Assembly: GCF_900215295.1 (NCBI RefSeq)
Contig: NZ_OCMF01000001.1
Span: 1,550,001 to 1,614,000 of the forward strand
Length of the DNA: 64,000 nt
Direction of reading: 5' to 3'
Source of the DNA: Salinimicrobium sediminis
GTDB taxonomy: Bacteria; Bacteroidota; Bacteroidia; Flavobacteriales; Flavobacteriaceae
Every line of letters starts with the position of its first letter. The first letter of the stretch is position 1. Below the pieces are notes generated by a model, which was not told the origin of the DNA, did no database searches, and saw only the letters and a list, made by a program, of their open reading frames with translations. The translations under genes and the position numbers were made by a program. This document shows, one piece after another, positions 59,888-62,469 of this stretch.

Positions 59888-61087
59888 ATGAAAATGAATA
59901 AAATTTATCTTTTATTATTAGCAATGGTTGTAAGCATCGGATTTACATCCTGTAGTGACGACGACGATAGCATAGATGTTATTGCTCCTACCGGAAACCT
60001 GGTTGTAGAAAATCAAATGCTTGAAAACAACATGTTGACAATAAGTAATGTTTCCATGAGCCAAGATGGTTGGGTAGTAATTCACCGCGATAACGGAGAT
60101 GGTGGGCCAATGGTTCCTGAAATTATTTCTGTTCCAAAAATGGTTGAAGCCGGTGATGCAACTGATGTAATGGTAGAACTTAAAGAAGGAGAAGAAGTCG
60201 AAGATGGAGAAGTGCTTTGGGCAATGCTTCACACCGATGATGGAGTTATGGGAACCTATGAATTTAATGGTACAAACGGTCTTGATGCTCCAATAAAGGA
60301 TGCTAGTAATAATATAATGACCAAATCATTTGTAGTTTCTGTAGAGGCTGCTCCAACCGGGACAGTGAGTGCAGATAGCCAGGTGCTTTTAAATGGCGTG
60401 GTAAGTGTTGGAAACATCACTCTAGACCGTGACGGATATGTAGTTATTCATGCTTCCAATGAGGCTGGAGATGGTCCAATGGTACCGGAAATTATTTCTC
60501 AACCTGTATATTTAGAAGCAGGTACTTATGAAAATGTAATGGTACCTCTTAAAGAAACAGCAACTGTAAATGCAGGGGCTACTATCTGGATCATGTTACA
60601 CACAGATACCGGGGAAGAAGGAGTATATGAATTTGATGGAGAAAATGGTCTGGATCTGCCAATTATGGACGAATCAGGAGATATAGTAATGACCTCTATC
60701 GAAATAACATCTATTTCTACTCAGGCGATTACAGGAACACTTACTGTAAATGATCAGGCACTTGCTGACAATATGATAAGTGTAGGTAATATAGTGCTTA
60801 GTCAAAGCGGATGGGTTGTTGTCCATGCCTCTAATGAAGCTGGCGACGGACCAGTGGTTCCGGAAATAATTTCTGAACCGGTTTACCTTGAAACGGGTGC
60901 ACATGATGACGTGGAAATTACTTTTGAAGAATCTGCAGAAGTAGCGTCCGGAGATAAAGTTTGGGTAATGCTTCACAATGATACTGGAGTAGAAGCATAC
61001 TATGAATTTGATGGACAGAATGGATTAGATCTTCCAATTACTGATGCATCAGGAGATATTGTGATGACTTCAATTACACTTGAGTAG
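59888..61087 (+). CDS. Lipoprotein with three DUF7282-like repeats
   Basis: The 399-residue protein has a lipobox (FTSCSDDDD, Cys22) and three tandem units of about 115-120 residues at roughly 35-150, 155-272 and 277-399. Each unit holds a (Y/W)VVIH or VVH strand, then GPMVPEIIS or GPVVPEIIS, V(M/E)(V/I)xxxE, an (A/I/V)MLHxD(D/T)G strand and YEF(N/D)G..GLDxPI. This is the DUF7282 pattern. Repeats 2 and 3 are closest to each other, suggesting a recent duplication. A surface adhesive or structural role is inferred. A terminator follows. Confidence 0.85.
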   Translation: MKMNKIYLLLLAMVVSIGFTSCSDDDDSIDVIAPTGNLVVENQMLENNMLTISNVSMSQDGWVVIHRDNGDGGPMVPEIISVPKMVEAGDATDVMVELKEGEEVEDGEVLWAMLHTDDGVMGTYEFNGTNGLDAPIKDASNNIMTKSFVVSVEAAPTGTVSADSQVLLNGVVSVGNITLDRDGYVVIHASNEAGDGPMVPEIISQPVYLEAGTYENVMVPLKETATVNAGATIWIMLHTDTGEEGVYEFDGENGLDLPIMDESGDIVMTSIEITSISTQAITGTLTVNDQALADNMISVGNIVLSQSGWVVVHASNEAGDGPVVPEIISEPVYLETGAHDDVEITFEESAEVASGDKVWVMLHNDTGVEAYYEFDGQNGLDLPITDASGDIVMTSITLE

Positions 61088-61140: not shown

Positions 61141-61242
61141 CTTTTAAATGTACTTTAAAAAAGAAGATTATTTACTTCTCTTTTTTTCTTTTTTAGGTGA
61201 AAAAACCCCCTCTCTTTCAAGAAGGGGCTTCTGCTTTGCTTG

Positions 61243-61283
61243 TGGTGCCTCCAGCCCCGAAGCGTCGGGGGGACCAGGGATAC
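61243..61283 (-). pseudogene. tRNA-Phe 3' fragment, distal copy (diverged)
   Basis: On the plus strand TGGTGCCTCCAG (61243-61254, acceptor and T-stem side), a hairpin CCCCGA-AGCG-TCGGGG (61255-61270), then GGACCAGGGATAC. Compared with the intact tRNA and the other two fragments it has extra changes (GGACC for GAACC, GATAC for GACAC). It abuts the stop codon of the distal GIY-YIG gene. Confidence 0.75.
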
Positions 61284-61564
61284 TATCTGGTAGAAAGAAT
61301 CTCCTCCAAAATTTCAGGACGTTCAATAATTTTTTGAATGAATTTACTGCTTTTCATTCTTTTAATATAGCATTTCAGAAAAACTGCGTCTGTTTTATTC
61401 TCACACTTAAAGATGACCTTGATTTCCCAATCTGAAGCAGCTTTAGTAAAGGCTTTTAAAAATCTATGACTATTATGCAATTTGATTCTTGCCGGAACGT
61501 CATTTGATTCTCCGGTATAATATTTATCAGCTTTTGCACTATAGATTATGTACAGAAAATGCAT
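61283..61564 (-). CDS. GIY-YIG nuclease family protein, distal copy (active site changed)
   Basis: The 93-residue protein has the GIY-YIG layout: FLYIIYSAKADKYYTGES at the start and ARIKLHNSHRF with the conserved Arg. In the later helix this copy reads VFLKCYIKRMKSSKF where the other copies read VFLERYIKRMKSRKF. The metal-binding Glu is therefore Lys and two Arg are lost, so it is probably inactive. It is farthest from the tRNA and the most diverged of the three, and its tRNA fragment has also drifted. Confidence 0.88.
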   Translation of the reverse strand: MHFLYIIYSAKADKYYTGESNDVPARIKLHNSHRFLKAFTKAASDWEIKVIFKCENKTDAVFLKCYIKRMKSSKFIQKIIERPEILEEILSTR

Positions 61565-61629
61565 TGTTTCACAAATAATTAGAATAAAAAAGCCCCCTCT
61601 TTTTCAAGAAGGGGCTTCTGTTTTGCTTG

Positions 61630-61670
61630 TGGTGCCTCCAGCCCCGAAGCGTCGGGGGAACCAGGGACAC
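61630..61670 (-). pseudogene. tRNA-Phe 3' fragment, middle copy
   Basis: TGGTGCCTCCAG (61630-61641), hairpin CCCCGAAGCGTCGGGG (61642-61657), then GAACCAGGGACAC up to the stop codon of the middle GIY-YIG gene. Compared with the intact tRNA, the hairpin replaces the T-loop bases near GAATC. Positions match about tRNA nucleotides 44-73. Confidence 0.8.
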
Positions 61671-61942
61671 TATCTAGTAGAAAGAATCTCCTCCAAAATT
61701 TCAGTACGTTCAATAATTTTGTGAATGAATTTTCTGCTTTTCATTCTTTTAATATAGCGTTCCAGAAAAACTGCGTCTGTTTTATTCTCACATTTAAAGA
61801 TGAGCTTGATTTCCCAATCTGAAGCAGCTTTAGTAAAGGCTTTCAAAAATCTATGACTATTATGCATTTTGATTCTTGCCGGAACGTCATTTGATTCTCC
61901 GGTATAATATTTATCAGCTTTTGCACTATAGAGAAAATGCAT
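61670..61942 (-). CDS. GIY-YIG nuclease family protein, middle copy
   Basis: The 90-residue protein is nearly identical to the proximal copy but lacks three residues (IIY) in the first strand through a 9-bp deletion: FLYSAKADKYYTGES instead of FLYIIYSAKADKYYTGES. The deletion removes the first half of the GIY motif. The catalytic Arg (ARIKMHNS) and Glu (VFLERYIKRM) are kept. Activity is doubtful. It has no clear promoter of its own; a terminator copy precedes it. Confidence 0.9.
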   Translation of the reverse strand: MHFLYSAKADKYYTGESNDVPARIKMHNSHRFLKAFTKAASDWEIKLIFKCENKTDAVFLERYIKRMKSRKFIHKIIERTEILEEILSTR

Positions 61943-62007
61943 TGTTTCACAAATAATTAGAATAAAAAAGCCCCCTCTTTTTCAAGAAGGGGCTTCTGCT
62001 TTGCTTG

Positions 62008-62048
62008 TGGTGCCTCCAGCCCCGAAGCGTCGGGGGAACCAGGGACAC
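62008..62048 (-). pseudogene. tRNA-Phe 3' fragment, proximal copy
   Basis: Same structure as the middle copy: TGGTGCCTCCAG (62008-62019), hairpin (62020-62035), GAACCAGGGACAC, abutting the stop codon of the GIY-YIG gene next to the tRNA. The 12-nt acceptor side and 12 nt of the T/variable region are identical to the intact tRNA-Phe. Confidence 0.8.
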
Positions 62049-62329
62049 TATCTAGTAGAAAGAATCTCCTCCAAAATATCAGGGCGTTCAATAATTTTTT
62101 GAATGAATTTTCTGCTTTTCATTCTTTTAATATAGCGTTCCAGGAAAACTGCGTCTGTTTTATTCTCACACTTAAAGATGAGTTTGATTTTCCAATCTGA
62201 AGCAGCTTTAGTAAAGGCTTTTAAAAATCTATGACTATTATGCAATTTGATTCTTGCCGGAACGTCATTTGATTCTCCGGTATAATATTTATCAGCTTTT
62301 GCACTATAGATTATGTACAGAAAATGCAT
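62048..62329 (-). CDS. GIY-YIG nuclease family protein, copy next to tRNA-Phe
   Basis: The 93-residue protein is the least changed copy: FLYIIYSAKADKYYTGES, ARIKLHNSHRFLKAF with the catalytic Arg, and VFLERYIKRMKSRKF with the metal-binding Glu. Stand-alone GIY-YIG proteins of this size relate to UvrC/homing-nuclease domains and are common in Bacteroidetes; cellular roles are unknown. Only about 70 bp, mainly a terminator, separate it from the tRNA-Phe gene, transcribed in the same direction. Confidence 0.92.
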   Translation of the reverse strand: MHFLYIIYSAKADKYYTGESNDVPARIKLHNSHRFLKAFTKAASDWKIKLIFKCENKTDAVFLERYIKRMKSRKFIQKIIERPDILEEILSTR

Positions 62330-62351
62330 TGTTTCACTAAATAATTAAAAT

Positions 62352-62386
62352 AAAAAAAGCCCCCTCTTTTTCAAGAAGGGGCTTCT
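62352..62386 (-). terminator. Terminator of tRNA-Phe, copied in each cassette
   Basis: On the minus strand AGAAGCCCCTTCTTG with AAGAGGGGGCTTTTTTT makes a G/C-rich hairpin and T-run just after the tRNA. Copies lie at 61963-61998 and 61584-61620, and a diverged one at 61200-61233. Confidence 0.9.
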
Positions 62387-62396
62387 GCTTTGCTTG

Positions 62397-62469
62397 TGGT
62401 GCCTCCAGGAATCGAACCAGGGACACAAGGATTTTCAGTCCTTTGCTCTACCAACTGAGCTAAGGCACC
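62397..62469 (-). tRNA. tRNA-Phe (anticodon GAA)
   Basis: The 73-nt gene folds as a full cloverleaf: acceptor GGTGCCT/AGGCACC, D arm GCTC-AGTTGGTA-GAGC, anticodon stem AAGGA/TCCTT with loop CTGAAAA (GAA at 62434-62436) and T arm CCTGG-TTCGATT-CCTGG. The T stem has one T-T mismatch in the middle. CCA is not encoded (the bases after discriminator A are CAA). It has its own promoter and terminator. Confidence 0.97.

Follow-up and report, generated by a model that had tools for sequence, protein, structure and literature searches.

How can a small nuclease gene settle at a transfer RNA (tRNA) gene, carrying a piece of that gene with it, and leave the gene whole? The question is raised by a 64,000-nucleotide stretch of the Salinimicrobium sediminis genome (contig NZ_OCMF01000001.1, positions 1,550,001 to 1,614,000 of the forward strand; hereafter the window), in which three head-to-tail copies of a GIY-YIG nuclease gene, each joined to a fragment of tRNA-Phe, follow the intact tRNA-Phe gene. 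They belong to a class of units that consist of a stand-alone gene for an Slx1/UPF0213-like GIY-YIG protein of about 90 residues and a piece of one tRNA, either its 3' part with the terminator or its 5' part, with a GC-rich hairpin substituted for one of the arms. On balance the best reading of the array is a homing-like unit whose insertion at one tRNA gene also makes that gene whole again. This looks like a lifestyle not described before, in which a selfish gene resides at tRNA genes and keeps them intact. This reading draws on the anatomy of the units, their tandem arrays, the binding of nuclease lineages to tRNA isotypes, presence, decay and absence at one and the same site, purifying selection on the nuclease, and the existence of gene-less tRNA-tail units.

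Anatomy of the array at tRNA-Phe

Along the minus strand the intact tRNA-Phe gene is followed by its terminator, which has a 14-bp stem, and then by three direct units of 389, 378 and 387 bp whose pairwise identities are 96.8, 95.9 and 95.8% (Table 1). Each unit comprises a GIY-YIG gene, a tRNA-Phe 3' fragment with a hairpin inside it and a copy of the terminator, and the final base of each TAG stop codon is also the first base of the fragment. Tandem Repeats Finder describes the array as a repeat with a period of 378, 3.1 copies, 94% matches and a score of 2190. The initial annotation of this DNA had reported three head-to-tail GIY-YIG units with a tRNA-Phe 3' fragment at the stop codon and had suggested tandem amplification; repeat analysis, matches to PF01541 and the sequence itself bear out the former, and the latter is likewise upheld.

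The fragment (about 42 nt) is made up of GTGTCCCTGGTTC, a 16-nt hairpin and CTGGAGGCACCAC. As the initial annotation had also proposed, the hairpin replaces part of the T loop: CCCCGACGCTTCGGGG substitutes for the GATTC of the tRNA. The claim that the fragment ends are identical to the tRNA is true of units 1 and 2 and fails for unit 3, the farthest from the tRNA, where two bases in the 5' portion of the fragment do not match. Folded as RNA, the fragments of units 1 and 2 are predicted to form a single extended stem-loop of -19.0 kcal/mol. The pattern of the 16-nt Phe hairpin has three sites in the 3.48-Mb genome, all of them in the window units, and an encoded CCA is absent from the intact tRNA-Phe and from all window fragments. 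In an Rfam search of the array the tRNA alone reached its gathering score, a match to BTnc231 at 18.9 bits versus 80.4 being taken as noise. Chance was rejected as an explanation of the array. Assembly error is unlikely and was rejected as well, because arrays of five to seven copies occur in single-contig genomes of other genera (G133, G378, G446).

Table 1. Features of the tRNA-Phe array, in window positions
Feature	Position	Strand	Basis
Intact tRNA-Phe(gaa), no encoded CCA	62396..62469	-	ARAGORN; Rfam RF00005, 70.3 bits
tRNA 3' flank and intrinsic terminator (copy 0)	62353..62395	-	sequence; fold -22.3 kcal/mol
GIY-YIG nuclease gene of unit 1 (93 aa; all conserved residues present)	62048..62329	-	PF01541, E 2.4e-12; AlphaFold model, pLDDT 95.9
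tRNA-Phe 3' fragment of unit 1, including stop codon; hairpin 62020-62035	62007..62050	-	sequence, repeats, fold
Terminator copy, unit 1	61964..62006	-	repeats, fold
GIY-YIG gene of unit 2 (90 aa; GIY strand lacks three residues)	61670..61942	-	PF01541, E 4.7e-9
tRNA-Phe 3' fragment of unit 2, including stop codon; hairpin 61642-61657	61629..61672	-	sequence, fold
Terminator copy, unit 2	61586..61628	-	repeats, fold
GIY-YIG gene of unit 3 (93 aa; Lys in place of a conserved Glu)	61283..61564	-	PF01541, E 4.4e-10
tRNA-Phe 3' fragment of unit 3, including stop codon; hairpin 61255-61270	61242..61285	-	sequence, fold
Terminator copy of unit 3, end of array	61199..61241	-	repeats, fold

The nuclease

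PF01541 (GIY-YIG) is the sole Pfam family above its cut-off in the proteins of the window units, and no NCBIfam family came close to its own cut-off in a search with them. Residues Y5, Y16, H30 and E64 are invariant in 27 aligned rows, and Y8 and R26 nearly so; these six we take to be the catalytic residues. Only unit 1, nearest to the tRNA, retains every conserved residue; its gene encodes a nuclease of a homing superfamily with the catalytic residues in place, whereas units 2 and 3 do not have them all. Profile and Foldseek comparisons give UPF0213, Slx1 and I-TevI as the closest solved folds. The best match is PDB 1zg2 (UPF0213) both by profile (E 4.1e-8) and for the structural model (Foldseek E 1.8e-3, probability 1.00, TM score 0.54), which places the protein by profile and by fold among the Slx1/UPF0213-like proteins. 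Its 93 residues leave no space for a separate DNA-binding domain.

Linkage of related nucleases to tRNA genes

A profile scan of one genome per species (84,980 species), in which relatives were picked by protein similarity, yielded 261 relatives, the best 80 of which correspond to 79 loci, which lie in Bacteroidota apart from a few labelled Ignavibacteria and Balneolaceae. A tRNA gene lies within 600 bp of the nuclease gene, the distance taken as linkage, in 64 of these 79 loci and is on the same strand in 63, as compared with 26 of 1884 random points in the same loci. Because the scan query was built from tRNA-linked proteins, the linkage holds for this branch and not for all GIY-YIG proteins. 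In the genus Salinimicrobium 61 distinct GIY-YIG open reading frames (ORFs) were seen, 25 of them with a tRNA in the locus; the remainder include a few that have tRNA fragments beside them or are placed at the end of a contig, and many that are surrounded by dispersed repeats. At five loci of the window genome and the genus (L008, L009, L011, L031, L055), GIY-YIG genes of other branches stand among dispersed palindromic repeats, and in L008 the gene is enclosed by the same pair of palindromes that, close by, enclose a spacer of about 20 bp, an arrangement that resembles a gene-bearing form of a short repeat.

The nuclease has a patchy distribution, being present at a threshold of E 1e-17 in 82 of 395 phylum genomes and in 27 of 149 family genomes (the window genome included), which accords with the homing-like reading. 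Such units thus occur in about a fifth of the sampled Bacteroidota genomes, and those nucleases whose surroundings were read sit at tRNA genes. Of 68 loci read in the phylum sample, 28 were supplied directly by the search and 40 had been chosen from the other matches before their surroundings were seen; two, L284 and L349, represent one array. A tRNA gene is linked in 61 of the 68, always on the same strand, whereas none of 141 random points is so placed; the seven unlinked loci, two of which are the same array, nonetheless contain tRNA fragments, L284 being covered by L349. The expectation that related GIY-YIG genes adjoin tRNAs is therefore borne out in both samples. In L329 and L343 the nuclease is preceded by a solitary 3' part of tRNA-Asp; a further insertion into the tRNA gene has apparently moved this part away from the rest. 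In one genome, Phe- and Asn-type arrays 3.9 Mb apart (L349, L350) have a similar segment of about 260 bp in place of the tRNA before the first gene, which suggests a shared insertion or rearrangement.

Nuclease lineage and tRNA isotype

The relation between nuclease lineage and tRNA isotype was assessed on a quick tree of 156 nucleases by counting changes of isotype label and comparing them with shuffled labels. Nineteen isotype states required 37 changes, versus a mean of 110.5 (minimum 102) when labels were shuffled and a mean of 95.8 (minimum 87) when they were shuffled within host family. The Flavobacteriaceae subset alone (72 rows, 10 isotypes) required 12 changes, versus 45 for shuffled labels (minimum 38). 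Among the 48 named rows, isotype required 14 changes (30.6 when shuffled) and host family 21 (22.8); among the 95 coded rows the respective values were 24 (68.0) and 29 (46.2). In both of these single-scheme sets of rows isotype groups the nucleases better than host family does.

Two rows of the tree that ARAGORN had called Stop and SeC were scored as Val from their neighbourhood. At L100 and L102 spoiled copies of tRNA-Val are labelled tRNA-Stop(tta) and tRNA-SeC(tca), a warning for annotation, since pipelines may report such stop-anticodon or selenocysteine calls as false suppressor tRNAs.

tRNA fragments and hairpins across units

Gapped alignment of the neighbouring tRNA to the gene flank, judged against 280 null windows, exceeded the null 99th percentile in 42 of 64 units, so that the flank contains a piece of the neighbouring tRNA and not a generic repetitive extragenic palindromic (REP) element; an ordinary REP element was rejected, although the inner hairpin is REP-like. 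An earlier test with a fixed 16-mer (13 or more matches in 38 of 64, null 3 of 350) was replaced by gapped alignment because the hairpin splits short fragments.

The units take two mirror layouts, either tRNA, gene and 3' fragment, or 5' fragment with hairpin, gene and intact tRNA. In the 3' form the fragment starts at most 15 nt from the stop codon in 37 of 53 alignments. The 5' form accounts for 11 of 64 units (Asn, Leu, Met, Arg(cct) and Thr), and Pro was also seen among the loci read. Which arm bears the hairpin differs between lineages: it takes the place of part of the D arm, the anticodon arm or the T arm. The initial placement of the unit at the tRNA 3' end thus applies to the 3'-part units and is too narrow as a general description, because the arm varies by lineage and some units carry 5' parts.

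The hairpin is GC-rich and often of the form TCCCGA..TCGGGA; in 100 of 155 units the pattern CCCGA..TCGGG occurs next to the gene, in its flank, versus 105 of 3000 random windows of the same loci. Among distinct inserts at the anticodon position, 31 of 33 pair at five or six of six positions, two of these 31 being ordinary tRNA anticodon arms, and shuffled letters do so in 22%. When halves of different hairpins are swapped, 86% still pair at five or six positions, so that covariation is modest, and 50% pair at all six versus 88% observed. On the minus strand of L062 (about 1136-1201 in locus numbering) a tRNA-Leu 5' fragment contains CCTGCCTGCCGGCAGGCAGG twice, inserted at separate positions and each time cleanly in register.

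Presence, decay and selection within the genus

Among 12 Salinimicrobium genomes the Phe site holds units in G000, G003 and G005. G009 has a nuclease whose fragment is not clear, and the nuclease is broken by a contig end in G011 and by undetermined bases (N) in G001. Contigs end at the site in G006 and G007, with no unit in the 150 bp visible in the latter. The site is empty in G002, G004, G008 and G010, the last of which has, by eye, a short stretch similar to the start of the nuclease gene. The Asn site, followed in 10 genomes, carries an intact gene in G000, G005 and G009 and a truncated one in G002 and G011; in G010 a truncated gene that scores under the cut-off of the profile search was recognised by eye. 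G001, G003 and G004 have no unit there. In G007 the site is cut by a contig end, and an intact gene lies at tRNA-Asn on another contig of that genome (L040). Within one genus the Phe site is therefore found both loaded and empty, and the Asn site is intact, truncated or vacant. Together with isotype binding, these sites present the single target with loaded and empty alleles in relatives that is looked for in a homing element.

The ratio of nonsynonymous to synonymous substitution rates (dN/dS) of the nuclease between species is 0.07-0.11, with several dS values over 1, and among the window copies it is 0.18-0.39, with few changes. The nuclease is under purifying selection between species. Copies within an array are more alike within a genome than between genomes.

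The tRNA-Phe gene has no encoded CCA in G000, G003, G005, G007 and G009, whereas CCA is kept in G002, G004, G008 and G010, where the nuclease is absent, and in G001 and G011, where it is present; in G006 the sequence breaks off. The loss of CCA was not taken as an insertion footprint, because only 3 of 42 tRNA genes of the window genome have an encoded end CCA.

Other units in the Salinimicrobium genome

Profile searches of the same genome revealed nuclease units of the same layout with other hairpins at tRNA-Asn, tRNA-Arg(tct), with two units, and tRNA-Leu(caa), with two units of which one is broken. Of its 42 tRNA genes, 13 have at least one extra copy of their own 3' end (12 nt, at most one mismatch) within 1.5 kb downstream. 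The nuclease is present at five of these, which form four loci: Phe, Asn (two genes), Arg(tct) and Leu(caa). The other eight are Ala(ggc), Arg(acg), Cys, Gly(gcc), His, Pro(tgg), Thr(tgt) and Val(gac), and none of the matches in the whole-genome GIY-YIG list lies close to them. The CCCGA..TCGGG hairpin is found at seven of these eight gene-less loci, and the tails are repeated in tandem to six copies at Ala(ggc) and six at Pro(tgg).

Over the whole genome the pattern has 49 sites, versus 3 for a reversed control, and 20 of 35 loci examined around such sites, some of them overlapping, contain no tRNA; the hairpin is thus not restricted to tRNA units. At six loci, namely L354, L356 and L028, where they stand between the two tRNA-Asn genes, and L217, L227 and L234, gene-less tRNA tails have their T arm occupied by a composite palindrome of greater length (GAGAAG..CCCGA..TCGGG..), which is similar across Asn, Thr, Gly and His loci.

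Proposed mechanism

In the homing-like life cycle favoured here, the nuclease would cut or nick the tRNA gene of its isotype, or a branched or cruciform DNA that the arms of that gene can form. Recombination repair through the shared tRNA part and terminator could then copy the unit in, with the joint re-forming a whole tRNA, and the displaced or spoiled tRNA part, an arm replaced by the hairpin, would stay as the far end of the unit. The resulting direct repeats would permit unequal recombination, leading to amplification, gene loss or loss of the whole unit. Such a cycle would spare the host gene. The hairpin may conceal the unit's own copy, or it may be the real substrate, as the RAYT-like alternative below would have it.

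It is also possible, though put forward tentatively, that these units constitute a new class of mobile element, isotype-specific, in which the tRNA part serves as both homing address and repair patch, the hairpin hides the unit's own part from the nuclease and gene-less tails are shed, to be moved or amplified in trans by the nuclease, so that the class shapes the tRNA loci of Bacteroidota. If homing is confirmed, it would show how a selfish gene can take up residence in a tRNA gene with no need of an intron, would account for the tRNA-tail repeats beside tRNA genes and would provide a collection of small nucleases, every one of them linked to a single tRNA isotype.

Several observations weigh against the homing-like reading. 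That the nuclease cuts the tRNA gene is something we infer. The body of the intact tRNA-Phe is identical in the 12 genomes, loaded or empty, and the hairpin alters only the fragment copy, so that the resistance of the loaded allele by which homing endonucleases are defined is not seen here. Either cutting needs a structure, or it is rare, or the site lies outside the tRNA body; structure-dependent cutting is conceivable because the nuclease is nearest to UPF0213 and Slx1 and has no space for a DNA-binding domain. Furthermore, 22 of the 64 fragments fall under the alignment threshold, six of them below the null 95th percentile, short Phe and 5' forms scoring low because the hairpin splits them, and the CCCGA..TCGGG hairpin was not detected in every unit. 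In three of the 61 linked phylum loci (L320, L323, L348) the predicted tRNA is in direct contact with the gene and could itself be one of the spoiled copies. Some isotype clades stay within a single host family, Ala within Flavobacteriaceae and Gly within f24, so that inheritance may be partly vertical. The discordance with the neighbouring gene, which speaks for the homing-like reading in that the nuclease and coaX group the genomes differently (dS between G003 and G005 is 0.62 and 1.21, respectively), is suggestive only, given about 92 codons and dS near or over 1 in several pairs. Finally, tblastn searches gave no match to the nuclease in 50,697 phage records at E 1e-5 or in the plasmid collection, so that these collections point to no vehicle for the unit.

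Alternative explanations

The nuclease could instead behave like a RAYT and recognise the hairpin rather than the tRNA, with TCCCGA..TCGGGA as a REP-like mobile palindrome of Bacteroidota, the nuclease units as its autonomous form, gene-less hairpins as its non-autonomous form, and tRNA arms as landing sites because they can form hairpins. The preservation of the hairpin stem across isotypes, its excess over the reversed control in the window genome, the gene-less hairpin units at other tRNAs, the two hairpins set cleanly in register into one tRNA-Leu 5' fragment and a fold nearest to UPF0213 and the structure-specific Slx1 are all consistent with this. In addition, the hairpin excess is higher in the 27 family genomes with the nuclease than in the 122 others (median 5.2 versus 1.3 per Mb, p 4e-7; p 9e-7 when the window genome is left out), but the control pattern is likewise commoner in nuclease genomes (p 0.013), and G098, G126 and G138 are rich in hairpins without having this nuclease. 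Nuclease lineage moreover tracks isotype, whereas much the same hairpin is common to several isotypes; the Phe hairpin is found nowhere else in its genome, the covariation of the stem is modest, and the HUH Y1 transposase that is the hallmark of RAYT is absent from the window units, in which GIY-YIG is the only Pfam family over the cut-off. A RAYT-like nature is for these reasons considered unlikely. An explanation at the level of RNA would have the tRNA co-expressed with the gene and the pseudo-tRNA, and either the protein or the tRNA-like hairpin RNA acting on tRNA (in processing, as a decoy, or as an RNA-guarded tRNA nuclease) to the benefit of the host, with no mobility involved; it would fit the same-strand layout behind or before the tRNA, the folding of two of the three window fragments as one stem-loop, and the purifying selection between species. 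It is quite unlikely, given that the unit is distributed patchily and is truncated or missing at one and the same site among genomes of a single genus, that two of the three window copies have lost conserved residues and that a terminator separates tRNA from gene in the window; we know of no GIY-YIG RNase. In its favour, the survey PMC1564403 reports that in prokaryotes an Slx1-like GIY-YIG domain can be joined to a tRNA methyltransferase of the TrmH type.

A passive tandem duplication of the tRNA 3' end that happened to capture an unrelated nuclease gene, with neither mobility nor function, in the manner of the tRNA-tail repeats of E. coli tyrT, would account for the gene-less six-copy arrays at Ala(ggc) and Pro(tgg), but not for nuclease lineages bound to isotypes across many families, purifying selection, the existence of both 5' and 3' forms or the hairpin in a tRNA arm in the units read, and is very unlikely. 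Integrative elements at tRNA 3' ends carry a copy that re-forms the host tRNA, and the initial annotation had likened the units to them. The likeness is formal, resting on a restored tRNA with a displaced 3' end. It breaks down in that the window units contain no integrase among their ORFs, measure only about 380 bp and include the terminator in their repeats, and in that 5'-part units exist; the remnant of an integrase-type island at tRNA-Phe is scarcely credible and was rejected on these grounds.

Comparison with known systems

The nearest precedent for the window units is SegB of T-even phages, a free-standing GIY-YIG homing endonuclease linked to tRNA genes, which in T6 mutants is tandemly amplified together with tRNA-Tyr (PMC13096335). 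SegB shares with the window units a GIY-YIG nuclease beside tRNA genes and tandem amplification, and differs in being phage-borne; the consulted portion of that paper contains no pseudo-tRNA with a hairpin and reports no favoured isotype, whereas lineages of the window type keep to one isotype. UPF0213 and prokaryotic Slx1-like proteins (PDB 1zg2, 1ywl; Slx1 7cq2, 6seh) are likewise stand-alone GIY-YIG domains, with no tie to tRNA genes and no such units in the consulted part of PMC1564403. A search of open-access literature, judged from titles and the opening lines of abstracts, gave no description of such units and no paper with the sequence of the palindrome, which within that scope is no proof that none exists.

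REP/REPIN elements with their RAYT proteins, as generally described, also combine a small nuclease with short GC-rich palindromes in gene-bearing and gene-less copies; unlike them, the window units have a GIY-YIG and not an HUH tyrosine nuclease, a palindrome inside a tRNA fragment and an isotype-bound lineage. The E. coli tyrT operon contains tandem repeats with a tRNA-Tyr 3' tail (rtT) and in this respect resembles the window array, in which each tandem unit also has a tRNA 3' tail; to our knowledge neither a nuclease gene nor a hairpin substitution is found there.

Just past the end of the array, at window positions 59888-61087, lies a gene for a 399-aa protein with internal repeats, in which direct repeats are spaced by 375 nt.

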